Shown here one piece after another: positions 34,714 to 62,434 of a stretch of 64,000 nt of DNA. Source of the stretch: Rhodanobacter sp. OK091 (GTDB lineage Bacteria > Pseudomonadota > Gammaproteobacteria > Xanthomonadales > Rhodanobacteraceae). The position numbers and the translations under genes were made by a program. Numbering within the stretch: the first letter of the stretch is position 1; every line of letters begins with the position of its first letter. The notes below the pieces were generated by a model. That model was not told the origin of the DNA, searched no databases, and saw only the letters and a list, made by a program, of their open reading frames with translations. The stretch lies in assembly GCF_900142825.1 (NCBI RefSeq), contig NZ_FRCH01000001.1, positions 992,001-1,056,000 on the forward strand, written 5' to 3'.

Positions 34714-36095
<1,382 letters not shown>

Positions 36096-44861: not shown

Positions 44862-46514
44862 GTGTCCAGCACAGCACCTTTCAGTGCCTCGTCCGCAAGC
44901 CCGGCAACGATTCGTCACGAGCTGTCGTTCCTCAATCTATTCCGCCTGGTGCAGGCTCTGGTGTACACCGGTCTGGCGTTCGGTCCGTCCGGCATGGGCT
45001 GGCCGCAACTGGCGGAACCCGGCTTTGCCCGCACCGTCACCACCGGGTACTTGATCTTCGCGCTGCTGGCGCTGCTGCTGAACCGGCGCAGCATGCCGTA
45101 TGCCCGGGCAGCCGTGGCGACGGCCCTGGTGGTGGACATTGCCGCCGCCGTTCTGACGATTACCGCGATGAACGACGCGCGCATCGGCATCGCGATGATG
45201 CTGGCGGTAAACCTCAGCGCCGGCGCACTGATCCTGCCGCTGAGGCTGTCCAGCTTCTTCGCGGCCCTGGCTACGCTGGGCATGCTCGGGCATACCTTCT
45301 TCGACACCTCGGCGAGCAACCGCGGCGACCGCGACCTTCTCGAGGCGGCCTTGTTCGGCCTCGCCTACTTCGCCACCACCACCTTGTGCCACGTGCTGGG
45401 CCGGCAACTGCGCGCCACCGAGGCGCTGGCCGAGCAGCGCAGCACCGACCTGGCCAACCTGGCCCAGGTCAACGAGCTGATCATCCGGCGCATGAAGACC
45501 GGCGTACTGCTGGTCGACGACGCCAACCGCATCCACCAGATCAACGAATCGGCGTGGATGCTGATGGGCAACCCGGGCGCCGACCAGCGCGACCTGGGCC
45601 AGCTGGCGCCGGAACTGTCGCGCCGGCTTTATCACTGGATGACTTCCGGCAAGCTGGACGAAACCGCCACCCAACTCGCCGACGGCGTGCCCGAAGTGGT
45701 GCCGCGCTTCACCCGGCTGGCACCGAACGACGACTCGCATGTGTTGATCTTCCTGGACGACACCTCGCTGTTGTCGCGCCGCGCGGAGGAACTCACGCTG
45801 ACCTCGCTGGGCCGCCTGTCTGCCTCGATCGCGCACGAGATCCGCAATCCGCTGGCGGCGATCCGCTATTCGGCGCAGTTGCTGGCCGAGTCGAAAAGCA
45901 TGGATTCCACCGACCAGCGCATGGTGGAAATCATCAACAACCACTGTATCCGGCTCAACGAGATCATCGAGAACATCCTGCAGTTGTCGCGGCGCGAGCG
46001 CTCGCGGCCGGAAACGCTGGATCTCGGTCACTGGGCGCAAGTCTTCGTCGAGGAATACAGCCAGGGCAACGACCTCGGCGCCGATTCGCTGCGGGCGATC
46101 GCCAGCAGCGGCACGCCGGTGGCGGCAGTGGCCGATCCGCAACAGTTGCAGCAGGTGGTGTGGAACCTGGTGCAGAACGCGCTGCGCTACGGCCGCCTGC
46201 CCGGCGAGCCGGCGCGGGTGATGGTGGTGACCCGGCAAGGCGAGCACGGCGTGCCGATTCTGGAAGTGATCGACCGCGGCCCCGGCATCGCGCCAAAAGT
46301 GGCCGCGCAGATTTTCGAACCGTTTTACACCACTCACGAATACGGCACCGGCCTGGGCTTGTATCTGGCCCGGCAGATGAGCGATGCCAACCAGGCCGCG
46401 CTGGAATACGTGCGCGTAGCCGGCGGCGGCAGCTGTTTCCGGCTGGTGCTGACACCACCGGCGCGCAGTCCCACCGACTCCGCCGAAACCGCCCAGACCA
46501 CCGCCACGCGCTGA
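44862..46514 (+). CDS. pilS: Type IV pilus two-component sensor kinase PilS
   Basis: PilS is the inner-membrane histidine kinase that controls pilin expression through PilR. No ATG lies near the conserved start, so GTG at 44862 is chosen (550 residues); GTG at 44850 is also possible. Six hydrophobic helices fill about 30-190 ([16 protein letters not shown] onward), then a PAS domain ([19 protein letters not shown]), HisKA with the H-box [20 protein letters not shown], and the ATPase domain with the N box [21 protein letters not shown] and [10 protein letters not shown]. Its partner pilR is 14.5 kb away instead of adjacent. Confidence 0.93.
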
Positions 46515-46570
46515 ACCGGATCTCGTTGAGCCGGGTCTCGTTGAGCCGGATCCTGTTGAACCGGACCTTA
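46511..46570 (+). repeat. 15-bp tandem repeat, four units, across the pilS stop
   Basis: Four consecutive 15-base units: CTGAACCGGATCTCG, TTGAGCCGGGTCTCG, TTGAGCCGGATCCTG, TTGAACCGGACCTTA. Each carries TGA in the pilS frame, so the pilS stop is repeated every five codons. It marks the point where pilS ends and the alpha-glucoside locus begins. Confidence 0.9.
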
Positions 46571-46593
46571 TCTAGCCGCCCGGTTGAACCTGA

Positions 46594-47598
46594 TCAGGTC
46601 GAGCGCACGATCAGGCTCACCGGCAGGCTTTCCGAACTGGCTCGTTCGCCGTCGATCAACGCCAGCACCTTGCGCGCCAGCAGCATGCCGCCTTCTTGCC
46701 AGTCCTGCCGCACCGAACTCAGCGGCGGCAGGAAGCTGGCGCCGAGCGGCATGTCGTCGTAGCCGACTACCGAGACATCGGCCGGCACCGAGCGCCCCAG
46801 GTCCAGCGTGGCGCGGATCGCACCCATGGCCAGCAGATCGTTGCACGCGAAGATCGCATCGAAACCCACCTTGCGCGCATGCAGCGAGCGCACCGCGTCC
46901 ATCCCCGAGTCCAGGGTGAACTCGTCGCGCCGCATCAGCAACGGCTTGATACCGTGCACCGCCAGCGCGTCGACGAAACCATTCAGGCGCGCGAAGATCT
47001 CCGGATGGCTGGGGTTGCCGATGAACACCGGGCGGCGCCGGCCCAGCGCGATGAAGTGCCGGGCCACCACTGTGCCGCCGAGGCGATTGTCGCTGCCTAC
47101 CACCACATGTGTATCGCTGGCCGATTGCGCGCCCCACACCACCATCGGCAGGTGCAGCTTGTCGAATCGGCGCACGGCATCCTGGTGCACGCCCTGGCCC
47201 AGCAGGATCAACCCGTCGGCAGCCTGTACCGCTGCCGCAGTGGCGCCCTGGCGCGTGGTCAGCAACACACTGTAGCCGGCCGCGGTCAGCTCCTGCGAGA
47301 TGCCGCCCAGCAGTATCAGCGGGTACGGGTCGAGCATGGTGCGATCGGTGGACGGCTTCATCTCGACGATCACCGCCACCGTATGGCTGCGGCGCAGGCG
47401 CAGGTTGCGCGCGCTGATGTTGAGCTTGTAGCCGTGCTCTCGGGCCAGCGCCTGAATCCGTTCGCTGGTTTCCGGGTTGACCAGCGGGCTATCGCCCAGC
47501 GCACGCGAGACCGTGATCTTGGATACCCCAGCCAGTTGCGCCAGGTCGGCCATGGTCAGGCTGCCTGACGCATGCTTGCGCGCGCCTTTCTTGCTCAA
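46594..47598 (-). CDS. LacI-family transcriptional regulator of the sugar locus
   Basis: The regulator has 334 residues. The start is taken as TTG (47598), preceded by GGGG at 8-12 bases, with residues 15-45 the LacI HTH (TMADLAQLAGVSKITVSRAL) and hinge helix NISARNLRLRR; ATG 15 codons later would cut into the HTH approach and lacks a ribosome site. The periplasmic-binding-protein-like sensor domain follows (HTVAVIVEMK; FACNDLLAMGAIRA; VVGYDDMPLG). It is divergent from the GH65-PGM gene, whose upstream region carries a CG-centred operator pair, so it is the probable local regulator. Confidence 0.92.
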   Translation of the reverse strand: MSKKGARKHASGSLTMADLAQLAGVSKITVSRALGDSPLVNPETSERIQALAREHGYKLNISARNLRLRRSHTVAVIVEMKPSTDRTMLDPYPLILLGGISQELTAAGYSVLLTTRQGATAAAVQAADGLILLGQGVHQDAVRRFDKLHLPMVVWGAQSASDTHVVVGSDNRLGGTVVARHFIALGRRRPVFIGNPSHPEIFARLNGFVDALAVHGIKPLLMRRDEFTLDSGMDAVRSLHARKVGFDAIFACNDLLAMGAIRATLDLGRSVPADVSVVGYDDMPLGASFLPPLSSVRQDWQEGGMLLARKVLALIDGERASSESLPVSLIVRST

Positions 47599-47834: not shown

Positions 47835-47868
47835 AAATGTTATCGATATCTTGATACCGATAACATTT
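47835..47868. promoter_or_regulatory. Double LacI-type operator before the GH65-PGM gene
   Basis: An inverted repeat with 11-bp arms (AAATGTTATCG at 47835-47845, complement at 47858-47868). Within it lie two abutting 14-bp sites: TGTTATCGATATCT (47838-47851) and TGATACCGATAACA (47852-47865); the first matches the reverse complement of the second at 12 of 14 bases. The central CG and half-sites are typical of LacI-family operators. An ATG immediately after it (47870) would put the operator on the start codon, which favours the downstream GTG start for the enzyme. Confidence 0.75.
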
Positions 47869-47944
47869 AATGCCAAGCTCGCCGCCAGCCGCAGCCTTGC
47901 GGGCCGACCGGCCTGATGCGTCAGGCGGAAAGAGAGAGCAAATC

Positions 47945-50900
47945 GTGGATCACTACGCAGCGGTGCCGCTCGATGCCGAAGCGCCGACAATCGGGGGAAA
48001 GGCAGCGGCCGATCCCTGGCTGCTGACCCGTCACGGCACCGATCCGGCCGGTTTCGCGCAGGACGAAAGCCTGTTTGCACTGGCCAACGGCACCCTCGGC
48101 GTACGCGGCAACCTGGAAGAGAGCGACAGCGACAGCCAGGCCACCTTGCTGTCCGCGGTGTGGGAACGCACCCCGATCGATTACCACGAGCGGTTCCCCG
48201 GCTTCGCCAGTCACACCGACACGCGCATCCCGGTCGCAGACGCCGCACGCATCCATTTGCGCCTGGGCGACACGCCAGTGCGGCTCGACCAGGGTGAATG
48301 GCTGTATTTCGAGCGCACGCTCGACCTGCGCAGCGGCTGCTACCGCCGCCGACTGTGCTGGCGGTCGCCGGAAGGCGCCACGCTGGAGATCGAGGCCGAG
48401 CGCATCGTGAGCCTGGAGGACGCCGGACTGCTGGCGATCCACTATCGCGTGCGCTCGCTGGATTACAGCGGCCCGATAACGCTGGAATCGTCGATCAGCA
48501 CCGCCCGCGAAGCTGCCGAACAAGGCTCCGATCCGCGCATCGGCAGCCATATCGATGGCGGTCTCAGCACCTACGACGCCCGAGCCGAGGAAGACCTCGC
48601 CTGGGTCGGCCAGCAAACCACCCACAGCGGCATCCGACTGATCTGCGCGCAACGGCACCAGCACGGCGACGACTTGCAATTCCGCTACGCGAATCTGGCG
48701 CCGCACGGCGTCACCCAGGTCTACGAGGGCGTCCTCGCGCCGGGCCAGACGGTCGCTCTCGACAAATACGTCGCGTATACCTTCACCGCCCCGTTCGCCA
48801 GTGATCAGGTCGAGGATCAGACAAACGACTTGCTCACGCGCGCGCAGGCCTCGCTGGATACGGCGATCGCATTCGGCTACCCGGCGCTGCTGGCACGGCA
48901 GGTTCAGGTGCTGTCGGCGCTCTGGGCGCAAGCCGATCTCGCCATCGAAGGCGACCCGGCGATCGAGCAGGCGCTGCGCTTCAACCTGTTCCATGTGTTC
49001 CAGTCGAGCAGCCGCGACAGCCACGGCACTACCGCCGCCAAAGGCCTCACCGGCGAAGGCTACGAAGGTCACTATTTCTGGGACGCCGAGGTGTTCATGC
49101 TGCCGGTGCTGGCCACTCTGGCGCCGGAACTGGTACGCGCGATGCTGACCTATCGCCATCGCACACTGGACAACGCGCGCCGCCATGCACGCGAGCTCAA
49201 CCATCCGCGCGGCGCGCTCTATGCGTGGCGCACGATCAGCGGCGACGAGTGCTCCTCCTATTTTCCCAGCGGCTCGGCGCAATACCACATCAATGCGGCG
49301 GTGGCGTGGGCGATCCGGCTCTACGTCGACGCCAGCGGCGATGAGGCGTTTCTGCGCGAACGCGGCGCCGAGATGATCATCGAGACCGCGCGGATCTGGC
49401 TGGAGATCGGACATTTCAGCGCACGCCACGGCGGCGCGTTCTGCATTCATGAAGTGACCGGACCGGACGAATACTCCGCCCTGGTCGACAACAACCATTA
49501 CACCAACCGGCTGGCGCAGCGGCACCTGCAGGACGCCGCCAACGTCGCCGACTGGATGGCGCTGACGTATCCGGCCGAACATGCCGCCCTCAGCGCCAGG
49601 ATCGTCCTGCAAGCGGACGAGGCTGCCCAGTGGCGCCGCGCTGCCCAGGCGATGCATCTGCCGGTCGACGGTGCGCTCGGCATCTTTCCGCAAGACGACG
49701 GCTTCCTCGACAAGCCCTTCCTGCCGGCCAGACTCGCCGCCACGTCAAACCGGCAGCCGCTGCTGCTGCGCCTGCATCCGCTCACCATCTATCGCCACCA
49801 GGTATGCAAGCAGGCCGACACGCTGCTCGCCCTGGTGCTGGCAGGCGAGCAGGTCGACGTCGCCGCCAAGCGCCGCAACTTCGATTACTACGAAGGCGTC
49901 ACCGTCCATGACTCCACGTTGTCGGCATCCACCTTCGCGGTGCTCGCCGCCGAAGTGGGTCATGCGGACAAGGCCTATGGCTATTTCCTGGATACGTTGC
50001 GCGTCGACCTGGACGACCTGCACGGCAATGCGGCGCACGGCCTGCACATGGCAGCGATGGCCGGCAGCTGGCTGGCACTGACCTGGGGCTTCGGCGGCCT
50101 GCGCGTGCATGGCGGCATGCCGGCACTGGCGCCAAGGTTGCCGGCGGCATGGAAGGGCTACCGCTTCGGCCTGCGCTGGCGCGATGCGCATCTGCGCATC
50201 GAGGTCGACCGCGACGGGGTGCTGTACACACTGACCGACGGCAGCGCCCTCACCTTCCTGCATGACGGCCTGCCGCAGCGTCTGCATGCGGGCCAGCCCT
50301 TGCGGCTGAAGTGCGCTGGCTTCGTCGAAGCCGCAGCGGTGCCGCTGAAGGCGGTGATCTTCGACCTCGACGGCGTGATCGCCGACACCGCGGTGGTCCA
50401 TCACGCCGCCTGGAAAAGGCTGGCTGACGAGATCGGCGTGCCGTTCGACGACGCCACCGGCGAGCGCATGAAAGGCGTCGACCGCCTCGGCTCGCTGGAG
50501 ATCCTGCTGCAGGCCGCGACGCGCACCTACACGGACGGCGAGAAACACACGCTGGCTGCACACAAGAACGATTATTACCGGCAACAAATCGAGCGTTTCG
50601 GGCCGCGGGATCTGCTGCCCGGCGCGCGTATGGCGATCGAACAGGTACGCCGGGCCGGGCTCAAGGTGGCGCTGGCTTCAGCGAGCCGCAATGCCGGTCT
50701 GCTGCTGGAGCGGCTTGGCATCGCCGACCTGTTCGACGTCGTCGTCGACGCCAATCGGATCAGCCGTTCCAAGCCCGATCCGGAAATTTTCCTCGCCGCC
50801 GCAAGCGCTCTGGGCGTGGCGACGGATGAGTGCATTGGCGTCGAAGACGCTGCGGCTGGCATCGCCAGCATTCGCGCCGCGGGGATGGCGGCGGTGGGAA

Positions 50901-51061
50901 TTGGCCAACGCCAGGTATTGGCCGAGGCAGATCTGGTGTTACCGAGTATCGCGGCATTCGACATCGACATTTTTACGACAACCCGAACGACGAACTGGCG
51001 TGGACCTGTCACCAGGCAGGCCTCGACCCAAACTGAAACTGATGGGGAGGAAGTGACATGA
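47945..51061 (+). CDS. Fusion of GH65 disaccharide phosphorylase and beta-phosphoglucomutase
   Basis: With GTG at 47945 (preceded by GGAAAGAGAGAG) the protein has 1038 residues; ATG at 47870 would add 25. There is no signal peptide, so it is cytoplasmic. Residues about 20-795 are GH65: FWDAEVFMLPVL, then HEVTGPDEYSALVDNNHYTN with general acid Glu509, and VCKQADTLLALVL (Lys622), the phosphate-handling KQAD motif of phosphorylases. Residues about 802-1010 are a HAD beta-phosphoglucomutase: AVIFDLDGVIADT (Asp807 nucleophile, Asp809 acid/base), ASASRN, SKPDPEIFL and VEDAAAGI. The first domain would give beta-glucose 1-phosphate, the second glucose 6-phosphate. Trehalose, kojibiose, nigerose or maltose are all possible substrates. 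Confidence 0.9.
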   Translation: MDHYAAVPLDAEAPTIGGKAAADPWLLTRHGTDPAGFAQDESLFALANGTLGVRGNLEESDSDSQATLLSAVWERTPIDYHERFPGFASHTDTRIPVADAARIHLRLGDTPVRLDQGEWLYFERTLDLRSGCYRRRLCWRSPEGATLEIEAERIVSLEDAGLLAIHYRVRSLDYSGPITLESSISTAREAAEQGSDPRIGSHIDGGLSTYDARAEEDLAWVGQQTTHSGIRLICAQRHQHGDDLQFRYANLAPHGVTQVYEGVLAPGQTVALDKYVAYTFTAPFASDQVEDQTNDLLTRAQASLDTAIAFGYPALLARQVQVLSALWAQADLAIEGDPAIEQALRFNLFHVFQSSSRDSHGTTAAKGLTGEGYEGHYFWDAEVFMLPVLATLAPELVRAMLTYRHRTLDNARRHARELNHPRGALYAWRTISGDECSSYFPSGSAQYHINAAVAWAIRLYVDASGDEAFLRERGAEMIIETARIWLEIGHFSARHGGAFCIHEVTGPDEYSALVDNNHYTNRLAQRHLQDAANVADWMALTYPAEHAALSARIVLQADEAAQWRRAAQAMHLPVDGALGIFPQDDGFLDKPFLPARLAATSNRQPLLLRLHPLTIYRHQVCKQADTLLALVLAGEQVDVAAKRRNFDYYEGVTVHDSTLSASTFAVLAAEVGHADKAYGYFLDTLRVDLDDLHGNAAHGLHMAAMAGSWLALTWGFGGLRVHGGMPALAPRLPAAWKGYRFGLRWRDAHLRIEVDRDGVLYTLTDGSALTFLHDGLPQRLHAGQPLRLKCAGFVEAAAVPLKAVIFDLDGVIADTAVVHHAAWKRLADEIGVPFDDATGERMKGVDRLGSLEILLQAATRTYTDGEKHTLAAHKNDYYRQQIERFGPRDLLPGARMAIEQVRRAGLKVALASASRNAGLLLERLGIADLFDVVVDANRISRSKPDPEIFLAAASALGVATDECIGVEDAAAGIASIRAAGMAAVGIGQRQVLAEADLVLPSIAAFDIDIFTTTRTTNWRGPVTRQASTQTETDGEEVT

Positions 51062-53601
51062 ACAACAACAAGCAAATGACCCGATTGATGCTGTCGGCGG
51101 CTATCGCAGGCATCCTGATGTCCGCGACGGCTATGGCGCAGGACAGCACGCAGAACACCTCGACAGCCCCCGCACCAGCGACCACCAAGAAGACGCCGCA
51201 GCGGCAGGCCAACGCCAAGACCACCACGACCCTGCAACAGGTCGTGGTGACCGGCTCGGCCACCGGAGTGAAGAAGATCGACGCCAGCTATACGCTGACC
51301 ACTGCCAGTGCCGAACAGATCAAGCAGTCCAATCCCAAGAGCACGGCCGACCTGCTGAAGATCGCGCCCGGCCTGTGGCCGGAATCCACGGGCGGCCAGA
51401 CCGGCGCCAACGTCGAGATCGCCGGCTTCCCGGGTGGCGGCGACGCGCCGTTCAACACGGTGCAGTTGATGGGCTCGCCGCTGTACGGCATGCCGACCCT
51501 GTCGTTCTTCGAGCAGACCTCGATCTTCCGCCTCGACGACACGATCGAACGCGTCGAGATCCTGCAGGGCGGCCCGTCGGTGGTCTTTGCGGACGGCCAG
51601 ATCGGCGCCACCGAAAACTTCATCCTGAAACAGGGCACCGAGGTACCGTCGGGCAGCATCGGCGTCACCTACGGCTCGGAAAACCTGAAGCGCGTCGACG
51701 GCTTCTATGGCTTCCAGCTGGCTCCCAATTGGTACAGCAGCGTGGGCGGCTTCTATCGCGACTCGAAAGGCGTACGCGACCCGCAGTTCCCGGCCGACAA
51801 GGGTGGCCAGTTCACCGCCACGCTGACCCATGACTCGGACAACGGCACGATGACGCTATATGCGCGTGCACTGAACGACAAGAACCAGTTCATCACGCCG
51901 ATCCCGCTGATCCAGAACGGCACCGACAAGTTCAGTGCCTACCCGGGCTTCGACCCGCTCACTGACACCTATAACAGCAAGTACATCCAGCATGTGTTTC
52001 TGGCCGGCTATCCGGGCGGCGGCACCAACGCCAACCTCGCGAACGGCCGCGGCGCGAAGATGAATTTCTTCGGCGGCAACTTCGACTATGACCTGGGCGG
52101 CTGGACGATCAGCGACAAGTTCCTCATCGATGCGGGCGACGTCGACACCAACGCGCTGTTCTCTGGCTCGAATCCGGCGACATTGAACGACGAGCTGTAC
52201 AACACCCCGACCAGCCAGGGCGGCTTCGCGCTGCCGGCCGGTTCGGCGACGGCAACTTACGCCGGCCCGGGTGGCGGCGGCATGGTCGATCCAAACCAGA
52301 GCGTGATCCACCAGGGCTGGTGGTACATCCACAAGCATCTGAAGAACATCAACAACGACTTCCGCGTCAGCAAGGAGATCTTCGACGGCAATACGCTGAC
52401 CGCGGGCGTGTACCTGGCGCACTACACCGACGACGACAAGTGGGCACTGGGCAACCAGATGCTGATGACCAACACGCCGAACGCGCGTCCGATCGCGGTG
52501 AGTTACGTCGACGCCGGCCAGACCAAGCAGTTGACCGATAGCCAAGGCTTCCTCGACAACGGCGGCTACAACATCACCGAGCGCGGCAAGGCCACCAACA
52601 AGGCGTTCTACCTGTCCGACTCGTGGCACCTCGGCAAGTGGCTGTTCGACGCGTCGGCCCGTCTGGAAAACCAGGATGCCTCCAATACCGTCTGCAACCT
52701 GACCAATGTCGACCTCGATAAGAACCCGCTCACGCTGTACAACAACAGCGTTCCGGTCTGCAACGGCACGTACTCGCGTACCGACTACAACAAGACCCAT
52801 ACCTCATGGACCGTCGGCGCGAACTACGAGTTGGCCGACAACATGAGCGTCTACGTGCGCGGCAACAAGGGCGTGCACTTCGGCGACTTCGACAACGCTC
52901 TGCGCGGCAACACCACCGGCAACACGGCCCCGCTGCAGAAGATCCAGAACATCGAAGCGGGCTTCAAGTACCAGTCGGAACTGGTCTACGCCGACATCAG
53001 CGTCTATCACAAGCAGTTCAATGGCCTCACCTTCCAGCCCACCAACGGCGCCGGCGTGCCGATCGGCAGCCAGCAGCTGTACGGCTCGGACTCCAAGGGC
53101 ATCAACGTCAGCGGTGCGCTCACCCCGGTCGAGAACCTGAAGCTGTCGCTGGTGGCGAACTACCTGGATGGCCACTACACGCACAACAGCTCGTGCTTCC
53201 CCTACACCAACGTGGTCACCGGTGTGGCCGGCTGCGCGGCGATCAACGGGGTGCAGTTGCAGCGCCAGCCGAAGGTTCGCTACATGTTCACGCCGAGCTA
53301 TCGGATCCCGTTCGCGTGGGGTGACGTGACTGCCTTCGTAACCTATACGCACGTCGGCCCGCACACCCAGGACCAGTCCGGCCTGCAGCAATTGGGCACC
53401 TACCACACGTTCGACTTCGGTGTGATCGCCAACATAGAAAAGAACTGGCAGCTGCGTCTGCAGGGCACCAACATCACCAACGAACTGGGCCTGACCGAGA
53501 GCAATTCGCGCATCTTCGGTACCGGCGTTTCCGGCGGTGTGATCCTGGCCCGTCCGCTGGAAGGCCGCGAGGTCAATTTCCAGGTGAAGTATCTGTTCTA
53601 G
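51058..53601 (+). CDS. TonB-dependent receptor of the alpha-glucoside locus
   Basis: The protein has 847 residues. The ATG overlaps the stop of the fusion gene (ATGA) and is preceded by GGGGAGG, so it is cotranscribed. A signal peptide ends at about 28 (ATAMAQD), a TonB box region is LQQVVVTGSATG, the plug follows (LLKIAPGLWPESTGG; IERVEILQGGPSVVFADGQ), then the barrel ending VNFQVKYLF with the usual C-terminal Phe. Coupling to a sugar enzyme makes an oligosaccharide the likely ligand, as in other TonB-receptor sugar loci of Xanthomonadales. Confidence 0.93.
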   Translation: MNNNKQMTRLMLSAAIAGILMSATAMAQDSTQNTSTAPAPATTKKTPQRQANAKTTTTLQQVVVTGSATGVKKIDASYTLTTASAEQIKQSNPKSTADLLKIAPGLWPESTGGQTGANVEIAGFPGGGDAPFNTVQLMGSPLYGMPTLSFFEQTSIFRLDDTIERVEILQGGPSVVFADGQIGATENFILKQGTEVPSGSIGVTYGSENLKRVDGFYGFQLAPNWYSSVGGFYRDSKGVRDPQFPADKGGQFTATLTHDSDNGTMTLYARALNDKNQFITPIPLIQNGTDKFSAYPGFDPLTDTYNSKYIQHVFLAGYPGGGTNANLANGRGAKMNFFGGNFDYDLGGWTISDKFLIDAGDVDTNALFSGSNPATLNDELYNTPTSQGGFALPAGSATATYAGPGGGGMVDPNQSVIHQGWWYIHKHLKNINNDFRVSKEIFDGNTLTAGVYLAHYTDDDKWALGNQMLMTNTPNARPIAVSYVDAGQTKQLTDSQGFLDNGGYNITERGKATNKAFYLSDSWHLGKWLFDASARLENQDASNTVCNLTNVDLDKNPLTLYNNSVPVCNGTYSRTDYNKTHTSWTVGANYELADNMSVYVRGNKGVHFGDFDNALRGNTTGNTAPLQKIQNIEAGFKYQSELVYADISVYHKQFNGLTFQPTNGAGVPIGSQQLYGSDSKGINVSGALTPVENLKLSLVANYLDGHYTHNSSCFPYTNVVTGVAGCAAINGVQLQRQPKVRYMFTPSYRIPFAWGDVTAFVTYTHVGPHTQDQSGLQQLGTYHTFDFGVIANIEKNWQLRLQGTNITNELGLTESNSRIFGTGVSGGVILARPLEGREVNFQVKYLF

Positions 53602-53898: not shown

Positions 53899-55164
53899 AT
53901 GAACCGAATTCGCATGATTGTCGCACTGGCGCTGATCTACATGATCTTCGCGATCCTGCTCAACAGCGTCGGCACGGTGATCCTGCAGTCGATCGCCACC
54001 TTCGGCATCGACAAGCCCGAGGCCAGTGCGCTGGAGCGCTACAAAGATCTCACGATCGCGTTCACCTCGTTTCTGGTCGCCTCATTCCTGCCGATGTTCG
54101 GCTACCGACGCTCGATGATGCTGGCCCTGGCCATCGTCGGCAGCGCCTGTTTACTGATGCCGCTCTATCCCGGTTTCCTGACCACGCGGCTGTTGTTCGC
54201 CTGTGTGGGCGTCGGCTTTGCTATGGCCAAGGTCTGCGTGTATTCCTCCATCGGCCTGCTCACCACCGACCGTGTCGCCCATTCGCGGCTGACCAATACC
54301 ATCGAGGGCTTGTTCATGGTCGGTGTACTCGGCGGCAACTGGATCTTCAGTGCGTTCGTCGACCCCCAGCACCCGGGCAACCCGGTGTGGTTCAACGTGT
54401 ATTGGCTGCTGGCCGGCGCGTGCGCGCTGGTGATCGTGCTGCTGGCCGGCAGCCGGCTCGACGAGAGCGCCGCGCATGCGCACGGGCACAACAATTCCTT
54501 CGCCGACTCGTTGATGGAGATGCTGCGGCTGTTCGTGCGGCCGCTGGTGTATGTATTCCTAGCCTCGGCGTTCCTGTACGTATTGATCGAGCAGAGCTTT
54601 GGTACCTGGCTGCCCACTTTCAACAGCGAGATCCTGAAGCTGCCCAATGCCATGAGCATCCAGTTCGCCAGCATCCTCGCCGGCATGACCGCACTGGGCC
54701 GCATCGGTGCAGGCGTCGTGCTCAAGCGCGTGCGCTGGCATGTACTTCTCAACGTGTGCGTGGTGGCGATGGGCGTGTTGGTGATGCTGGTGCTGCCGCT
54801 GGCGCGTGGCGTACAGGCGCGTCCGGACGTCGGCTGGTTCAATGCGCCGGCCGCCGCCTACCTGATCCCGCTGCTCGGTCTGCTGATGGCGCCGATCTAC
54901 CCGGTGATCAATTCGGTCGCGCTGAGCTCGCTGCCCAAGCCGATGCACGCGGCGATGACCGGGCTGATCGTGGTGTTCTCCGCGCTCGGCGGCACCATGG
55001 GTTCGTACATCACGGCACGGGTATTCGCCAGCTTCGACGGCATCCACGCGTTCTATTTCTCGCTGCTGCCGATGAGCTTGATCCTGATCACACTGTTCTT
55101 CTTCAAGCGCGAGACCGACCGTGCTGCCGTCTTGGCCGTCTCGCCGGCGGAAGCGCTGCCGTGA
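53899..55164 (+). CDS. MFS sugar transporter
   Basis: The protein has 421 residues with about twelve hydrophobic helices (MIVALALIYMIFAILLNSV onward; DRVAHSRLTNTIEG in the central region; MHAAMTGLIVVFSALGGTMG in the tenth or eleventh helix). It resembles the FucP/sugar-permease branch of MFS rather than drug exporters. Placed between the TonB receptor and the exported GH65 enzymes, it is the expected inner-membrane importer for glucose or a disaccharide released in the periplasm. Confidence 0.87.
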   Translation: MNRIRMIVALALIYMIFAILLNSVGTVILQSIATFGIDKPEASALERYKDLTIAFTSFLVASFLPMFGYRRSMMLALAIVGSACLLMPLYPGFLTTRLLFACVGVGFAMAKVCVYSSIGLLTTDRVAHSRLTNTIEGLFMVGVLGGNWIFSAFVDPQHPGNPVWFNVYWLLAGACALVIVLLAGSRLDESAAHAHGHNNSFADSLMEMLRLFVRPLVYVFLASAFLYVLIEQSFGTWLPTFNSEILKLPNAMSIQFASILAGMTALGRIGAGVVLKRVRWHVLLNVCVVAMGVLVMLVLPLARGVQARPDVGWFNAPAAAYLIPLLGLLMAPIYPVINSVALSSLPKPMHAAMTGLIVVFSALGGTMGSYITARVFASFDGIHAFYFSLLPMSLILITLFFFKRETDRAAVLAVSPAEALP

Positions 55165-55267: not shown

Positions 55268-57520
55268 ATGATTTCGCTACGCCACCACTTGCTTCCCGGC
55301 ATCGCGTTCACCCTGTTGCTGGCCAGTGCAGGTTCTCGCGCGGCCGCCACCGACCCCAGCTTCCTGCTCACCGGCACCGCCGAAAATTTCGGCACCTATT
55401 TCCCCAGCTATCTGGCCAACGGCTACTTCTCCACGATGACCTCGGTGCGCGGCACCGAGGGCAACCGCGCGTACATGGTCGCGTTCATGGACTATAAGCC
55501 CGGCGACATCGCGCGTCCCGCCGCGATCCCCGGCTGGAGCGAGATCGACTACAACCCCGGCGGCGGCTGGCTCAATTCGACCCGGCTGGGCGCGAATATT
55601 TTCACGGGATACAAGCAGACGCTGGACATGCATGGCGGCACGCTGTCGACCCGCTACCGCTTCGAGTACGCGAACAAGGCGACCGACGTCGAGGTCACCA
55701 CCTTCGTCAGCCAGGCATCGCCGCACCTGGCGGCGACCCGGCTTTCCATCACGCCGCAGTTCGACGGCAGCGTGCAGCTGACTTTCCCGATCAGGCTATG
55801 GTCGGAGCATCAGCCGCGCTTTCCGATCGGCAGCATGAGCGGCGACGAGATGATCGCGGCGGTGATCGCCAGCGGCCAGACACTGGACAACAAACCGGTA
55901 CCCACGCCCGACCGCGCCGCCGTGTGGTATCCCGGCTACACCCGTGTGGCGGCCAACGACGGCGATACCAAAGAGCTGACGCTGTGGCTGGACGGCCAGG
56001 CCGAACACGGCCTGACGATGGCCGAAGCCGCGGCGATCGGCCTGCCGCCCGGTCTGGTGGTCGAGGACGTGAAGCTGGAAAAAAGTCCCTACAAGCTGTC
56101 GCTGAACCTCATCGTCAAAGTGCAGAAGGGCAAGACCTATACCTTCACCAAGTACATCGCCACCTCGCGCCAGAACTGGGACGGCAAGGCCAGCGACGAC
56201 GTGGCGCTGGCCACGGCTGCGCGCCGGAAGGGCTTCGACAAGCTGCTGGCCGAACACCAGGCCGCCTGGCACGAGCTGTGGAAGTCCGACATCGTGGTCG
56301 ACGGCGACCCGCAAGTGCAGCGCGCCGTGCATTCGGATCTGTACTACCTGCTGTCCAACTCCACGGTCGGCACGGCGTGGCCGATGGGCGCTTGTGCGCT
56401 GACCCCGGGCTACGCCGGCCACGCGTTCTGGGACAGTGATTCGTGGGTCTTCCCTGCCCTGCTCCTGCTGCATCCGGAACGCGCCAAGCCGATCGTGATG
56501 TTCCGCTCGCGCACGATGCAGCCCGCGCGCGAGCGTGCGAAGCAGTACGGCGTGAAAGGCACGATGTATCCCTGGGAGGCCGATCCGGAGACCGGCGTCG
56601 ACCACACGCCGCACTTCGCCTATGGCGTGTTCCGCGAGATCCACGTCAACGCCGACATCGCCATCGCGCAATGGCAGTACTACCTCGCCAGCGGCGACGA
56701 CGCCTGGCTGAAGCAGCATGGCTGGCCGGTGATCCGCGAGATCGCACAGTTCTGGGTCAGCCGGGTGACCTACGACAAGGGCCAGGACCGCTACGAGATC
56801 GAGCACGTCACCTCGCCCGACGAGGCGTACGACGACGTGCCGAACGACTCGTTCACCAACGCCGCGGCACGCAAGGCGCTGCAGATCGCGATCAAGGCCG
56901 CCAAGCAGGTCGGCGCCACGCCCGATCCGCAATGGGCCACGATCGCCGCGAAGATGTACATCCCGTTCGACGAAAAGAATCAGCGCCATCTCGACTTCGA
57001 CGCCTCGGTGCCGCATGACAAGATCACCTGGATGGGTTCGTCGCTGGCCTGGCTGATGTATCCCAACCTCGACCTGCCGATGTCGCCGCAGGTGCGCCGC
57101 AACGACTTCGCGTTCCAGCTGCACGAACTGAAAGTGCACGGCGACGATCCCAACGAGATGATGATGGTGATGCTCGCCGTCGGCGCGGCCGAGCTGGGCG
57201 ACAGCAAGACCGCCGGCGAATGGATCCAGCGCAACCTGGTGGGCTTCCTGAAACCGCCGTTCAACGTGCGCACGGAAACCGTCGCCAACAACGCCGGCTA
57301 CATCCTCGCGACGTCGGCCGGCTTCGTGCAGAGCTTCGTCTACGGGTTCAGCGGCCTGCGCATCGAGGACGACGGCCTCACCGAAGCGTATGCGCCGGCG
57401 CTGCCGCCCGAATGGAAATCGCTGCAGCTGAAGGGCATCCATTTCCGCGGCAAGCAATACGACATCACCATCGAGCACGGCGCCGACGGCAAGGCCAAGC
57501 TCACCCGCAAGCCGTTGTAG
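55268..57520 (+). CDS. Exported GH65 glycoside hydrolase, kojibiose hydrolase/PGGHG-like (first copy)
   Basis: The protein has 750 residues, start at 55268 with GGAG upstream, and a signal peptide ending near 27 (GSRAAATD). It belongs to GH65: FWDSDSWVFPALLLLHPERA, MYPWEADPETG, REIHVNADIAIAQWQYYL, then HVTSPDEAYDDVPNDSFTN with general acid Glu519, and NVRTETVANNAGY with Glu670. The 151-residue spacing of these glutamates is close to that in the characterised bacterial kojibiose hydrolase of this family; phosphorylases lack the second Glu. A KQAD motif is absent. It should therefore hydrolyse, in the periplasm, an alpha-glucoside such as an alpha-1,2-linked one. It is followed 52 bp later by a paralogue. 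Confidence 0.85.
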   Translation: MISLRHHLLPGIAFTLLLASAGSRAAATDPSFLLTGTAENFGTYFPSYLANGYFSTMTSVRGTEGNRAYMVAFMDYKPGDIARPAAIPGWSEIDYNPGGGWLNSTRLGANIFTGYKQTLDMHGGTLSTRYRFEYANKATDVEVTTFVSQASPHLAATRLSITPQFDGSVQLTFPIRLWSEHQPRFPIGSMSGDEMIAAVIASGQTLDNKPVPTPDRAAVWYPGYTRVAANDGDTKELTLWLDGQAEHGLTMAEAAAIGLPPGLVVEDVKLEKSPYKLSLNLIVKVQKGKTYTFTKYIATSRQNWDGKASDDVALATAARRKGFDKLLAEHQAAWHELWKSDIVVDGDPQVQRAVHSDLYYLLSNSTVGTAWPMGACALTPGYAGHAFWDSDSWVFPALLLLHPERAKPIVMFRSRTMQPARERAKQYGVKGTMYPWEADPETGVDHTPHFAYGVFREIHVNADIAIAQWQYYLASGDDAWLKQHGWPVIREIAQFWVSRVTYDKGQDRYEIEHVTSPDEAYDDVPNDSFTNAAARKALQIAIKAAKQVGATPDPQWATIAAKMYIPFDEKNQRHLDFDASVPHDKITWMGSSLAWLMYPNLDLPMSPQVRRNDFAFQLHELKVHGDDPNEMMMVMLAVGAAELGDSKTAGEWIQRNLVGFLKPPFNVRTETVANNAGYILATSAGFVQSFVYGFSGLRIEDDGLTEAYAPALPPEWKSLQLKGIHFRGKQYDITIEHGADGKAKLTRKPL

Positions 57521-57571
57521 CCACTTTGCGAGCGGGTGCCGCTGCGGCGCCCGCTCGCTGCCAGGAAGGGA

Positions 57572-59845
57572 ATGACGATGCGTCGACGCCGTAGCCCGCT
57601 TCTCCTGACCGTCATCCTGGCCGGCCTGCTCGCCGCAGGCGCCGGCCAGGCCACAGACGCGAGCTTCCTGCTGACGGCGACCGCCAAGGCCCTGGGCAAC
57701 TATTTTCCGGGCCAGCTGGGCAACGGCTTTTTCTCCACGCTGACGTCGCCGCGCGGCACCGAGGGCAACCTCGCCTACATGATCGGCTTCATGGATTACG
57801 CCGAGGGCGACGTATCGCGCCCCGCAGCCATTCCCGGGTGGACCGCGATCGACTACAGCACCGGCCCGTCGCACGCGGGCCAGTTCTGGCTCAACCAGGT
57901 CGACGTGAACGCCGCGCGCTTTCGCGATTATCGGCAGGTGCTGGACATGTACGACGGCACGCTGACCACCCGTTACCGCTACCTCGACGGGGCCAGGTCC
58001 ACCGACGTGCGCGTGGTGACCCTGGTAAGCCAGGCCTCGCCGCATCTCGCGGCCAACCAGCTCACCATCACGCCGGACTTCGACGGCGAGGTACAGCTGT
58101 CCTTCGCGCTCGATCTGTGGGCGCCGCACCAGCCGCGCTTTGCGCTGGCGAAGCTCGACGGTCCGCAGATGCAGGAAGCGGTCGCCGCGAACAATCTGAA
58201 GTTCGAGGCGGTGCCGCCTGACGTGCCCGACCGTGCGCCGCTCTGGTACCACGGCTATACGCACGTGCTCGCCGCCGACGGCGACACGCAGGCGCTGACA
58301 CTCTGGCTCGACGGCAAGGCCGAACAAGGCGCCGGCATGGCCGAAGCCGTGGCGGTCGCGCTGCCTGCCGGCATGCGGCCGCGCGACGCCAAACTCCATC
58401 GCAGCGACTACAAGCTGTCGCTGGAGCTCCGCATCGAGGTGCGCAAAGGCCATAGCTACACCTTCACCAAGTTCGTGGCCGCCTCGCGCGAGCGCTGGGG
58501 CGGCGACGCCAAACAGGATCTCGCCCTGGCCACCGCCGCGCGCGACGCCGGCTTCGACGCGCTGCTGGCACGGCAGCGCGATGCGTGGCACACGCTGTGG
58601 CAGTCGGATATCGCCATCGACGGCGACCCGAAGGCGCAGCAGATCGTGCATTCGGACTTGTACTACTTGCTGATCAACGCGGCGCCCGGCACCAACTGGC
58701 CGATCGGCGCCTGCGGCATGACGCCGGGCTACAGCGGCCACGTGTTCTGGGACAGCGATACCTGGCTGTTCCCCGCGCTGTTGCTGCTGCACCCCGAACG
58801 CGCGAAGTCGCTGGTGATGTTCCGCAGCCATACCCTGCCCCAGGCCCAACAGCGCGCGAAGACGCGCGGCCTGCGCGGTGCGATGTACCCCTGGGAAGCG
58901 GACCCCGACAACGGCAGCTCGCAGACGCCGCATTTCGCCTGGGTGCTCGACGAGCGCGAGATCCACGTCAACGCCGACATCGCCATCGCGCAGTGGCAGT
59001 ACTACCTCGCCACCCAGGATCGCGACTGGCTGAAGCGGCATGGCTGGCCGGTGATCCGCGCCATCGCCGAGTTCTGGAGCAGCCGCGCCACCTACGTGCC
59101 GGCCACGCAGCGTTACGAGATCCTGCACGTCACCTCGGTGGACGAGGACTACAACGACGTGCCCAACGACACCTTCACCAATGCCTCGGCGCAAAAAGCC
59201 CTGCAGATCGCCACGCGAACCGCCCAGTTGCTGGGGGAGACCGCTGACCCGCAGTGGTCGCGCGTCGCCGCCGGCCTGCTGCTGCCCTACGACGACAAGG
59301 CAGGCCACCATCTCGATTTCGATGCCTCGGTGCCGCACGACATCAATTCATGGGGCGGCAGCTCGCTGCCGATGCTGAGCAATCCGTCGCTGGACCTGCC
59401 GATGGACGTCCAGACGCGCCGGCGCGACTACGCCTATGCCATCGCGCCGATCACCCAATCCAGCCGCGATCCCAACAGCATGGGCCTGATGCCGCTGTCG
59501 ATCGCTGCCGCCACCGCCGGCGACAGCGAGGCGGCCGGCGACTGGTTCCAGCGCAACATCACCGCCAACGTGCTGAAGCCGCCGTTCAACGTGCGCACGG
59601 AAACGGCCACCAACAACACCGGTTATTTCGCCACCGCCAGCGGCGGCCTGCTGCAGAACATCCTGTACGGCTTCACCGGTCTGCGCCTCGACGAGAACGG
59701 CTTGACGCAGGCCTATGCCCCGATGCTGCCGCCGCCGTGGAAGTCGTTCACGCTGAAACACATCAACTTGCGTGGCCGCTATTACGACATCACGGTCCGC
59801 CGCGCAGCCGACGGCAGGCCGGAGCTGGTACGCCACGCACTCTGA
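57572..59845 (+). CDS. Exported GH65 glycoside hydrolase, kojibiose hydrolase/PGGHG-like (second copy)
   Basis: The protein has 757 residues; the ATG at 57572 or two codons later both sit behind AGGAAGGG. A signal peptide ends near 30 (GAGQATD). It is a close paralogue of the preceding gene over the whole length (for example LHPERAKSLVMFRSHTLPQA, MYPWEADPDNG, REIHVNADIAIAQWQYYL, PPFNVRTETATNNTGY). General acid Glu525 lies in HVTSVDEDYNDVPNDTF, where Pro of the first copy is Val, and the candidate base is Glu677. Both glutamates are kept, so it is expected to be active. The difference near the acid may change specificity. Confidence 0.85.
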   Translation: MTMRRRRSPLLLTVILAGLLAAGAGQATDASFLLTATAKALGNYFPGQLGNGFFSTLTSPRGTEGNLAYMIGFMDYAEGDVSRPAAIPGWTAIDYSTGPSHAGQFWLNQVDVNAARFRDYRQVLDMYDGTLTTRYRYLDGARSTDVRVVTLVSQASPHLAANQLTITPDFDGEVQLSFALDLWAPHQPRFALAKLDGPQMQEAVAANNLKFEAVPPDVPDRAPLWYHGYTHVLAADGDTQALTLWLDGKAEQGAGMAEAVAVALPAGMRPRDAKLHRSDYKLSLELRIEVRKGHSYTFTKFVAASRERWGGDAKQDLALATAARDAGFDALLARQRDAWHTLWQSDIAIDGDPKAQQIVHSDLYYLLINAAPGTNWPIGACGMTPGYSGHVFWDSDTWLFPALLLLHPERAKSLVMFRSHTLPQAQQRAKTRGLRGAMYPWEADPDNGSSQTPHFAWVLDEREIHVNADIAIAQWQYYLATQDRDWLKRHGWPVIRAIAEFWSSRATYVPATQRYEILHVTSVDEDYNDVPNDTFTNASAQKALQIATRTAQLLGETADPQWSRVAAGLLLPYDDKAGHHLDFDASVPHDINSWGGSSLPMLSNPSLDLPMDVQTRRRDYAYAIAPITQSSRDPNSMGLMPLSIAAATAGDSEAAGDWFQRNITANVLKPPFNVRTETATNNTGYFATASGGLLQNILYGFTGLRLDENGLTQAYAPMLPPPWKSFTLKHINLRGRYYDITVRRAADGRPELVRHAL

Positions 59846-59881
59846 AACCCATCGCCACCCTGATCCACGAGGAGAAAGGCC

Positions 59882-60955
59882 ATGCCCGCAGCACGCGCCC
59901 AACGGCTGATACAAGCCACGTTGTTCTGTGCCGGCCTGTTCGGTGCTGCGGCGTTCGCGCAGACGCAGCGACCCAGCGTCGACAGTCGCGGCAACGTGAG
60001 CATGCCCGCCTTCGTGGTGCCTTACTCGGCGTACGCGTCACCCGAGGCGCAGCGGCAGTTCCAGCAGATGCTGGAACAAGGCCGGCATGCGCCGGGCATC
60101 GGCTCGATCGCCGCCAGCCGTGCCTACTACGACAGGATCAACACCGATCGCGCCGATCGCATGCGGAAAATTTATCCGGTGAGCATCCACGCCGAGACAG
60201 TAGGCGGCGTACCCACCGACGTGGTGCTGCCTGCGCAGGGCGTCGCCCCAAGGCAGCGGCACCGGGTGCTGATCAACCTGCACGGCGGCGCCTTCCTGTG
60301 GGGCGCGCACAGCGGCGGCCTGGTGGAGGCCATCCCGCTGGCCAGCCTGGGCCGGATCAAGGTGGTCAGCGTCGATTATCGGCAAGGACCGGAACATGTC
60401 TTCCCGGCCGCCAGCGAGGATGTCGAGGCGGTCTATCGTGCCCTGCTCAAACAGTATCCGGCGAAGAACATCGGCATCTATGGCTGCTCCGCCGGCGGTG
60501 TGCTCACCGGCGAGGCGGTGGCGCGCATCATCACCAGGAAGCTGCCGGTGCCGGGGGCGATCGGCACCTTCTGCGGCTCGGTCAGCGAGCTGGCCGGCGA
60601 TTCCACCTTCATGTCGCCCGTGCTGAGCGGCGATCCCCCGCCGGTCCGGCCGCTGCAGCTGGCCGACCTGCCGTACTTCAAAGGGGCCAAGGTCAACGAT
60701 TCCCTGGTATTCCCCGCCAACTCACCCGCGCTGCTGGCGAAATTCCCGCCGACCCTGCTGATCACCGGCACGCGCGATTTCACCATGAGCTCGGTCGTGC
60801 ACAGCCAGGCACTGCTGACTGCGGCCGGGGTGGACGCCGAGCTGCATGTCTGGGACGGCATGTGGCATTCGTTCTTCTCGGATCCGGAGATGCCCGAATC
60901 CCGCGAGGCGTACGCCGTGATGGTGGGCTTCTTCGACCGCAGGCTGGGGCGTTAG
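59882..60955 (+). CDS. Exported HSL-type alpha/beta hydrolase
   Basis: The protein has 357 residues, with a signal peptide ending at about 27 (AAFAQT). The HSL oxyanion motif is HGGAF (134-138), the nucleophile elbow is YGCSAGG with Ser203 (Cys replaces the usual Asp of GDSAGG), and Asp299 (ITGTRDF) and His329 (DGMWHSFF) complete the triad. It is 36 bp after the second GH65 gene, preceded by GGAGAAAGG, so it belongs to the same transcript. Removal of acyl groups from an acylated sugar is a possible role; this is inferred from context. Confidence 0.87.
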   Translation: MPAARAQRLIQATLFCAGLFGAAAFAQTQRPSVDSRGNVSMPAFVVPYSAYASPEAQRQFQQMLEQGRHAPGIGSIAASRAYYDRINTDRADRMRKIYPVSIHAETVGGVPTDVVLPAQGVAPRQRHRVLINLHGGAFLWGAHSGGLVEAIPLASLGRIKVVSVDYRQGPEHVFPAASEDVEAVYRALLKQYPAKNIGIYGCSAGGVLTGEAVARIITRKLPVPGAIGTFCGSVSELAGDSTFMSPVLSGDPPPVRPLQLADLPYFKGAKVNDSLVFPANSPALLAKFPPTLLITGTRDFTMSSVVHSQALLTAAGVDAELHVWDGMWHSFFSDPEMPESREAYAVMVGFFDRRLGR

Positions 60956-61030
60956 AAATGCGCGCACAGTCTTTGCCTCGCAACGCAGGGCCGGGTATTC
61001 TCTGCCGTATCGATAGCCACGCGACGTGCC

Positions 61031-62434
61031 ATGAACCCACAGACCGTCCTGGTCATTGACGACGAACGTGACATCCGCGAACTGCTGACCATCACGTTGG
61101 GTCGGATGGACCTTCAAGTCGATGCCGTGGGCACCGTGACCGAAGCGCGTCGCGCGCTGGCCGAACGCACCTACGACCTGTGCTTCACCGATATGCGGTT
61201 GCCCGACGGCAATGGCCATGAGGTGATCGAGCTGATCGCCGCGAACCATCCGGACATGCCAGTGGCGATGATCACCGCCTACGGCAACGTCGACGCCGCC
61301 GTGAACGCGCTGAAGGCCGGCGCATTCGACTTCGTCTCCAAGCCGGTCGACATCCAGATGCTGCGCGGACTGGTGCGTACCGCCTTGCGGCTGGCCGAAG
61401 AAAAACGCAGCGGCGCCGCCGCCGCGAAGACCGGCGATTCCAGCGAGCGCCTGATCGGCGACTCGGGGGCGATGCAGCTGGTACGCGCCACCATCCGCAA
61501 ATTGTCGCGCAATCAGGCGCCGGTCTATATCGCCGGCGAATCGGGCGTGGGCAAGGAGCTGGTGGCCCGGCTGATCCACGAACAAGGTCCGCGCGCCAGC
61601 GGACCGTTCGTGCCGGTCAACTGCGGCGCGATTCCGTCCGAGCTGATGGAAAGCGAGTTCTTCGGCCACCGCAAAGGCAGCTTCACCGGCGCCAGCGCCG
61701 ACAAGGAAGGCCTGTTCCAGGCTGCCCAGGGCGGCACGCTGTTCCTCGACGAAGTAGCCGAGCTGCCGCTGCACATGCAGGTGAAACTGCTGCGCGCGAT
61801 TCAGGAAAAGGCGGTGCGCCCGATCGGCGGCCGCGACGAAATCCCGGTGGATGTGCGCATTCTGTCGGCCACCCACAAGAATCTCGGCCAGCTGGTCGAA
61901 CAAGGCCAGTTCCGCCAGGATCTGTTCTACCGCATCAACGTGATCGAGTTGCGCGTACCGCCGCTGCGCGAACGCCGCGGCGACGTGCCGCAGCTGTCCA
62001 CCTTCATCCTCAAGGCGCTGGCCGGCAAGAGCGGCGACAGCGTCGGCCAGCTGTCGCCGGCGGCGCGCGATGCGCTGGAAGCGTACGATTTTCCCGGCAA
62101 CGTTCGCGAACTGGAGAACATCCTGGAACGCGCCATGGCGATGTGCGACGGCACCGTCATCGATGCAGCCGATCTGATGCTGCCACAGCGCGGTACGCGT
62201 GCCGGACATGAGGCGCCACCGGCAGCCGCGGCAGGCCATGAAGCCTCGGCTGCGCCAGCGTCCGCCAGCGCCAGCGCAAACGGCGGTCTCGACGACTACA
62301 TCAGCAATCTCGAACGCACTGCCATCGTCAAGGCGCTGGAAGAATCGCGCTACAACAAGACCGCTGCCGCCCGCAAACTCGGCATCACCTTCCGCGCCTT
62401 GCGCTACAAGCTGAAGAAGCTCGGCATCGACTGA
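61031..62434 (+). CDS. pilR: Type IV pilus response regulator PilR
   Basis: PilR is the sigma-54-dependent activator of pilin genes, phosphorylated by PilS. It has 467 residues: a receiver (1-125, phosphorylated Asp54 in CFTDMRLPDGNG), an AAA+ domain (Walker A GESGVGKE, the sigma-54 contact loop KGSFTGAS, FYRINVIELRVPPLRER), an Ala-rich linker (GHEAPPAAAAGHEASAAPAS) and a Fis-type HTH (ALEESRYNKTAAARKLGITF). It lacks a sensor beside it because the sugar locus lies between it and pilS. The 75 bp upstream hold room for a promoter but none was recognised. Confidence 0.94.
   Translation: MNPQTVLVIDDERDIRELLTITLGRMDLQVDAVGTVTEARRALAERTYDLCFTDMRLPDGNGHEVIELIAANHPDMPVAMITAYGNVDAAVNALKAGAFDFVSKPVDIQMLRGLVRTALRLAEEKRSGAAAAKTGDSSERLIGDSGAMQLVRATIRKLSRNQAPVYIAGESGVGKELVARLIHEQGPRASGPFVPVNCGAIPSELMESEFFGHRKGSFTGASADKEGLFQAAQGGTLFLDEVAELPLHMQVKLLRAIQEKAVRPIGGRDEIPVDVRILSATHKNLGQLVEQGQFRQDLFYRINVIELRVPPLRERRGDVPQLSTFILKALAGKSGDSVGQLSPAARDALEAYDFPGNVRELENILERAMAMCDGTVIDAADLMLPQRGTRAGHEAPPAAAAGHEASAAPASASASANGGLDDYISNLERTAIVKALEESRYNKTAAARKLGITFRALRYKLKKLGID

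Follow-up and report, generated by a model that had tools for sequence, protein, structure and literature searches.

A probable shared address of an old alpha-glucoside island between pilS and pilR in Rhodanobacter and related genera

Why should the two genes of one two-component system lie far apart, with a set of sugar genes between them? The question is raised by a 64,000-nucleotide stretch of the genome of Rhodanobacter sp. OK091 (contig NZ_FRCH01000001.1, positions 992,001 to 1,056,000 of the forward strand; assembly of 4.42 Mb in 11 contigs), here called the window and numbered from its first letter. In it, 14,516 bp separate pilS, encoding a sensor kinase, from pilR, encoding a sigma-54-dependent response regulator. 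Pfam and NCBIfam scans gave the gene order sucD-sucC (minus strand), pilS (plus), lacI (minus) and then, all on the plus strand, genes for a fusion of a glycoside hydrolase family 65 (GH65) phosphorylase with beta-phosphoglucomutase (GH65-PGM), a TonB-dependent receptor, a major facilitator superfamily (MFS) transporter, two GH65 hydrolases and an esterase, followed by pilR. The scans confirm, gene by gene, an initial annotation that had described an alpha-glucoside module separating the pair. We consider it probable that the gap is the shared address of an old alpha-glucoside island that was later lost, swapped and rebuilt in place.

Occupancy of the pilS-pilR site

The genes that border the site look intact. 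On the left, pilS (44862-46514, plus strand) encodes 6TM_PilS (PF25323), HisKA (PF00512) and HATPase_c (PF02518) domains; on the right, pilR (61031-62434, plus strand) encodes Response_reg (PF00072), Sigma54_activat (PF00158) and HTH_8 (PF02954) domains with the motif GSFTGA. This is the make-up of a PilSR system, a PilS-type membrane sensor with HisKA and HATPase domains and a regulator joining receiver, sigma-54 and Fis-type helix-turn-helix (HTH) domains, and the pair resembles the usual one in that both proteins are intact and orthologous. A second pair, which the initial annotation had named as possible counter-evidence, did not turn up: no second pilS was among the matches listed for the OK091 genome (any other is weaker than about E 1e-16), and the next-best pilR match is 36% identical.

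We compared the site in 36 congeneric genomes, OK091 included; genera follow the taxonomy used (g numbers), sequences carry G or L labels, and records named Rhodanobacter or Dyella are spread over several of the numbered genera. All 36 contain pilS, 83-94% identical to that of OK091 in the other 35, and 34 contain pilR (in G005 and G030 no pilR match stood out from other regulators). Both genes share a contig in 28 genomes, in every one of which PilS has the motif HEIRNP and PilR is 460-472 aa long; 18 of these have a gap of 8.7-24.8 kb, and in ten the genes are adjacent. Overall, the island is at the pilS-pilR site in 26 of the 36 genomes, closed on one contig in 18 and seen from one flank in eight, where GH65-PGM shares a contig with pilS or pilR. 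Since GH65-PGM occurs in 27 of the 36, only one carrier, G004, has it at another place, on a different contig amid unrelated genes, and there pilS and pilR are adjacent. The relocated G004 module (L253, 5673-16484) consists of lacI, GH65-PGM, TonB receptor, MFS and GH65 genes, flanked by a phosphoesterase gene at one end and by OsmC-hydrolase and thiolase genes at the opposite end.

Closed islands have a constant core and variable additions. Genes for LacI, GH65-PGM and the MFS transporter are in all 18, the TonB receptor and a GH65 hydrolase in 17 each, and the esterase in ten; the TonB gap in G010 is probably a broken frame of a metagenome assembly, because the matching record L068 has two TonB pieces. 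Optional extras encode a tetratricopeptide-repeat (TPR)-2-oxoglutarate (2OG) oxygenase (five islands), a 2OG oxygenase (four), a GH37 trehalase (four), GH36-like (three), GH125 (three) and GH127 (two) proteins and a sulfatase (one). Genes for the GH36-like protein, a GH125 alpha-mannosidase and a 2OG-Fe(II) oxygenase stand beside pilS in G007 (L156, 2207-8384) and also in G003, G016 and L073, a cargo that suggests a wider glycan range.

The same arrangement recurs beyond the genus. Among 80 named pilS loci, which cover Rhodanobacter, Dyella, Frateuria, Fulvimonas, Luteibacter and others (some being the same genomes as in the congener set), module genes are present in 52 (in one of them just lacI), pilR is adjacent in 22, and six are of other kinds: four with too little contig, L073 with a type II island and L126 with different cargo. 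For loci named Dyella the figures are 20 of 25 with the module, four adjacent and one without a call. The left flank of the site in OK091, sucD (42522-43397, minus strand; CoA_binding and Ligase_CoA) and sucC (43409-44572, minus strand; ATP-grasp_2 and Ligase_CoA), is conserved as well, with a sucC match above 70% identity, anywhere in the locus, in 80 of the 80. We located pilR for 30 named records; if the numbered contig is the named one, the gap is 11.3-22.9 kb in 26, while two are adjacent (L065, L109) and two (L103, L126) have pilR on another contig. In L126 (R. glycinis MO64, 12422-20561) pilS is followed by genes for a sugar MFS transporter, a GH3 beta-glucosidase-like protein, a LacI-family protein and a TonB receptor; its pilR lies on a separate contig (L126/L274) with the usual alpha-glucoside island upstream, such that pilS and pilR are unlinked in the assembly.

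In a sample of the whole family, GH65-PGM was found in 85 of 197 genomes and 16 of 26 genera. We took in 75 of these carriers, the other ten being congeners already studied, and in 55 of the 75 the gene is within 30 kb of pilR (11 genera, including the Rhodanobacter genus of OK091), a measure that for most genomes speaks of nearness to pilR alone and does not include the position of pilS. In the remaining 20, GH65-PGM is on another contig in 19 (some in fragmented assemblies) and far away on the same contig in one. Of 15 regions read in eleven genomes, the order pilS, module, pilR was found in five (genera g22, g31 and g36). One of these five regions, in G106 (L289, 11220-17486), is a minimal island that has kept nothing but the GH65-PGM gene, which starts some 12 bp after pilS. 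Where the module is elsewhere, pilS and pilR are adjacent in all five genomes checked, namely four in which both places were read (G097, G100, G122 and G218) and G004.

Adjacency of the two genes, taken as the normal state by the initial annotation, is also the likely ancestral state, because, among 24 genomes from the order's other families, 13 have their best matches to pilS and pilR within 600 bp, two have them about 1 kb apart and one 4.5 kb apart; the other eight have them on other contigs or in another order, or lack convincing orthologues. We also considered whether adjacent pilS-pilR in Luteibacter proves late insertion, and dropped this argument. Genus g31, with 73-75% pilR identity as against 78-79% for Luteibacter and Pinirhizobacter loci, carries the island although it is more distant (two of its three regions read have the esterase gene next to pilR), and the Luteibacter adjacency may thus be a loss.

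Empty sites and the age of the island

Nine of the ten empty congeners, from about six lineages of a gyrB+aspS tree, share one junction (...GCGTTGACCTTTTGGCCTGCCCTAGTAACCT...), which we call E type. Its gap is 53-57 bp in eight of the nine, the spacing from which the 18 closed carriers depart by kilobases, and 71 bp in G023. The F type, comprising G029 and six named loci, has gaps of 91-274 bp and retains the pilR upstream element of the 18 closed carriers; the adjacent locus L100 fits neither type clearly. On the gyrB+aspS tree (30 genomes), genomes with adjacent sites occupy about seven places. A sucCD tree gave 15 Fitch changes among 73 labelled loci, an indication only: sucCD is short, probably recombining, and makes a poor species tree.

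Six E genomes were each compared with a nearby island-bearing genome (a sister in some cases, not all). In all six, the opening 60 nt of pilR resemble the other E genomes more than the island-bearing partner, and in all six pilR from nt 121 onward resembles the partner more. Measured in 60-nt segments, the start of pilR gives a mean difference of +0.064 and no other part of the gene exceeds +0.003; in pilS the maximum is +0.021 (last segment), with one more at +0.013. The simplest reading would be that a short stretch of the empty allele moved between species, replacing the island. A second route is visible in Dyella subtropica L118, whose junction retains the 3' end of lacI with its best match in the island-bearing L083 (score 47 vs. 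26-29 in three shuffles); on sequence grounds, this shows an island lost by internal deletion. Losses would then have occurred in two ways, internal deletion and import of a shared empty allele.

The age of the island was approached by comparing distances of island genes with those of gyrB+aspS in 16 type-I carriers. Those of lacI (r 0.94, ratio 1.00) and the MFS gene (r 0.90, ratio 1.13) follow the core genes, with pilS (r 0.87) and pilR (r 0.86) as comparison values; GH65-PGM (r 0.88, ratio 1.62) and the TonB receptor (r 0.82, ratio 1.69) do so more loosely. The divergence of lacI and MFS at core-gene pace suggests that the island is old, and its arrival is likely to have been a single event that predates the split of Rhodanobacter, Dyella and their relatives. 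Exchange at the site is apparent from G003, G007, G016 and G028, in which the lacI/GH65-PGM/TonB part is rearranged and the GH65-PGM is 54-59% identical to that of OK091. These GH65-PGM sequences group with those of G097 (g27) and G177 (g33), where the module is elsewhere (support 1.00 each); we read this as putative replacement, in place, of part of the island by a foreign lineage.

Flexible genomic islands, or hotspots, are stretches of cargo between conserved genes that are exchanged by homologous recombination. The pilS-pilR site is like them in that alternative contents occur between homologous, conserved flanks; these contents would likely be swapped in the same way, although the recombination signal at the border is short. 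It is unlike them in that a single two-component system supplies both flanks and in that the cargo is mostly of one metabolic theme. Exchange probably depends on recombination within the conserved flanking genes pilS and pilR and not on a mobile element. Of the window's open reading frames that were scanned (part of the total), none gave an integrase or transposase hit, in agreement with the initial annotation; the sole tRNA gene of the window, tRNA-Lys, is at 10.6 kb, and inspection of the borders by eye showed no direct repeats. The G+C content is about 0.61-0.62 across the TonB/MFS part and mostly 0.63-0.69 around it.

Predicted sugar pathway and its regulation

The fusion gene (47945-51061, plus strand) is a single open reading frame with GH65 N-terminal, middle and C-terminal domains followed by a HAD-type beta-phosphoglucomutase domain; the product has 1038 aa from a GTG start, with an alternative longer reading from 47870. 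Residues 826-1012 of the 1063-aa reading pass the beta-phosphoglucomutase model TIGR01990 (235.2 bits vs. a cut-off of 189.4). According to PMC8626586, GH65 phosphorylases use a Glu as catalytic acid and bind phosphate through Ser/His/Lys residues; in the fusion, E509 as the acid and a phosphorylase-type HDSTLS motif align with 1h54 and 3wiq, which places it with the phosphorylases on its acid Glu and Ser/His motif. Its closest solved chains in the PDB are maltose and kojibiose phosphorylases, and bPGM for the mutase part, while its relatives carry source labels of trehalose phosphorylase or beta-phosphoglucomutase.

The two GH65 hydrolases, a (55268-57520, plus strand) and b (57572-59845, plus strand), are of a different kind. 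For both, the closest solved chain is 7fe3, the kojibiose hydrolase FjGH65A, whose chain numbering is offset by 3 from that in PMC8626586; that paper gives Glu472 as acid, Glu616 as general base, and Trp391 and Glu392 as contacts to glucose at subsite +1. E519/E670 of hydrolase a and E525/E677 of hydrolase b align with the acid and base of 7fe3, as in an FjGH65A-type enzyme, and both N-termini resemble signal peptides by eye, making a periplasmic location likely. The remaining steps of uptake are represented by the TonB-dependent outer-membrane receptor (51058-53601, plus strand; Plug and beta-barrel by Pfam, with an N-terminus that by eye resembles a signal peptide) and the MFS inner-membrane transporter (53899-55164, plus strand; MFS_1). 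At the right end of the island is an alpha/beta-hydrolase esterase of a GCSAG-motif family (59882-60955, plus strand; NF058650, 510 bits vs. a cut-off of 410).

Taken together, the predictions support periplasmic hydrolysis and then cytoplasmic phosphorolysis of an alpha-glucobiose, whose linkage the sequence data do not fix. The receptor would take up alpha-gluco-oligosaccharides, the two hydrolases, in the periplasm, would cleave alpha-1,2-linkages or similar ones, the MFS transporter would import the disaccharide, and the fusion would phosphorolyse it to beta-glucose-1-phosphate and convert this to glucose-6-phosphate.

Known loci offer partial parallels. Carbohydrate utilisation loci with TonB-dependent receptors (CUT loci) are described from Xanthomonas, with sux as an example (PMC1790865). 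The island has the same clustered set by Pfam, namely a TonB receptor, an inner-membrane sugar transporter, a degradative glycosidic enzyme and a regulator (cf. PMC1790865); it differs in its GH65 enzymes, its phosphorylase-mutase fusion and its address inside a two-component pair, and the term GH65 is absent from the main text of that paper. FjDexUL, as described in PMC8626586 and PMC10316084, likewise joins a likely periplasmic GH65 hydrolase with an acid/base Glu to TonB-linked uptake of alpha-gluco-oligosaccharides, but it is a SusCD dextran locus of Bacteroidota with GH31, GH66 and GH97 enzymes, and a phosphorylase-mutase fusion is not among the genes listed for it there. In the open-licence literature we found no description of a sugar island between pilS and pilR, hotspot and island papers being judged by title.

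Regulation may be built into the island. The lacI-family gene (46594-47598, minus strand, convergent with pilS; LacI HTH and Peripla_BP_3) has an uncertain start, at 47598 or 47553. Upstream of GH65-PGM is an operator-like palindrome, TTATCGATATCTTGATACCGATAA (47840-47863), and LacI would repress through this single predicted operator, with TTATCGRTATCTTGATACCGATAA as the proposed binding sequence. A 24-bp palindrome precedes GH65-PGM in nine of the 18 closed islands, OK091 included. Allowing up to three mismatches, it occurs at one place per genome in each of the five of these nine that were searched whole and is absent from all three empty genomes so searched; a single place would fit a self-contained LacI regulon in those genomes.

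The second regulatory feature is a promoter-like element before pilR, CTTTGCC and TATTCT separated by 18 nt (60971-61001, plus strand). Both boxes are kept in 19 congeneric genomes (the 18 closed islands and the empty G029), mostly 18 nt apart although the spacer varies, and in the Luteibacter/Pinirhizobacter outgroup loci pilR has upstream boxes of a related kind that match less exactly. A strict sigma-70 consensus scan scored no promoter upstream of pilR, and the assignment accordingly draws on the conservation of the two boxes. With such an element in carriers the split need not silence pilR, which would stay expressed from its own promoter and leave PilSR functional although split. The initial annotation had held that the split removes cotranscription of pilS and pilR; this stands for the pair itself, whereas a loss of pilR expression does not follow, given the conserved element. 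In congeners, the spacer between the boxes often forms a GC-rich inverted repeat (CCCCGC..GCGGGG), a possible regulator site.

Elsewhere in the window, about 9 kb left of pilS (32893-36095), a gene for a GH15-type glucohydrolase with a trehalase-like N-terminus lies beside a GT20 (OtsA-type) gene, placing trehalose-related genes near the alpha-glucoside island. An ShlB/FhaC-type transporter gene (2372-5011, plus strand) is followed by a 1807-aa open frame (4959-10382, plus strand), perhaps its two-partner exoprotein.

Alternative explanations and meaning of the site

Several observations weigh against a single old island that was lost and exchanged in place. Fixed E/F differences are few, three in pilR (alignment nt 5, 1223 and 1238) and none in pilS; the recombining stretch is short, with just one fixed difference at the start of pilR. 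An ancestral empty allele followed by repeated gain through the same recombination would give a similar junction, which leaves the direction of exchange unproven. The pilR element that carriers conserve is missing from E-type sites. The six F-type sites other than L118, searched with three shuffles each, gave no convincing remnant: G029 scored 39 vs. 27-32 in shuffles, but far inside the locus of another genus, and L109 and L111 were barely above shuffles. The GH65-PGM tree splits genera (g31, g40 and Rhodanobacter), likely through more exchange, and places G100 (g30) among the congeners with low support. Correlations with gyrB+aspS are low for hydrolase a (r 0.02) and hydrolase b (r 0.50, 15 genomes), probably owing to mixed paralogues, and the esterase has r 0.79 in seven genomes. 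The palindrome is not general: three of the 18 closed islands have a shorter relative of it with a GATATCGATATC core, and six, type II islands included, have a different one or none. Of the three kojibiose contacts, both hydrolases keep Trp391 and Glu392 but apparently not Thr407, and at 363 (a) and 359 (b) bits they fall below the cut-off of 800 for the kojibiose hydrolase model NF053734.

The strongest competitor makes the empty allele ancestral in Rhodanobacter and lets the island enter many lineages separately, by recombination between donor and recipient pilS and pilR flanks. It would account for an E-type junction common to scattered lineages, for a second, xenologous island type and a GH65-PGM tree that splits genera, and for G004 with its module elsewhere and an empty pilS-pilR site. 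We nevertheless think it unlikely: type-I lacI and MFS track core-gene distances, outgroups and deletion-type empty sites have a carrier-like pilR upstream element and not that of the E type, and most Dyella-named loci have the module.

A second alternative holds that the position is kept for its function, with the sugar operon reading through into pilR such that alpha-glucosides raise PilR and tune pili. The last island gene points toward pilR in 18 of 18 closed islands, 64-337 bp away, and a simple test, for which there was no positive control, found a terminator-like site in none of these intervals, making sugar-induced read-through into pilR possible; the address is also common to several genera. 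Against this, the orientation would follow just as well from shared descent, pilR has a promoter-like element of its own, ten congeners without the island keep an intact PilSR, and a separate scan for terminator-like sites scores hardly above shuffles (12 vs. 9.2). We therefore regard a functional constraint as doubtful, and we give as little credence to its fuller form, in which the sugar operon has captured the pilus regulator and LacI-controlled read-through lets alpha-glucoside supply set the dose of PilR while PilS stays constant. If that were true, a matched pair would have become one of diet-controlled stoichiometry, and a swap to the empty allele would restore a fixed PilS/PilR ratio.

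The initial annotation had favoured a fresh insertion peculiar to the OK091 genome, for which empty sites in close relatives speak, such as that of G014 (94% identical pilS). Comparison across genus and family led us to reject this now very improbable reading: 26 of 36 congeners share the island at this position, and the phosphorylase gene is near pilR (within 30 kb) in ten other genera. What stands is a self-contained module at a conserved pair, with the site free of it in ten of 28 resolved congeners; the one-off event does not. The annotation had itself named as counter-evidence the presence of the same genes between pilS and pilR throughout the family, and this is largely what we see. An assembly artefact, of which we saw no sign, is refuted by the same arrangement in the single-contig genomes G025 and G031, and its probability is negligible.

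The main point is not one split pair but that, in several genera, a two-component pair hosts an exchangeable sugar island. Matched sensor and regulator genes are expected to stay together; here a catabolic island keeps them apart, and it does so in more than one genus. The empty, deleted, swapped and relocated states found in close relatives provide a natural comparison for the balance of a split pair, and they are also material on integrase-free island exchange and on a possible link between nutrients and pilus control.

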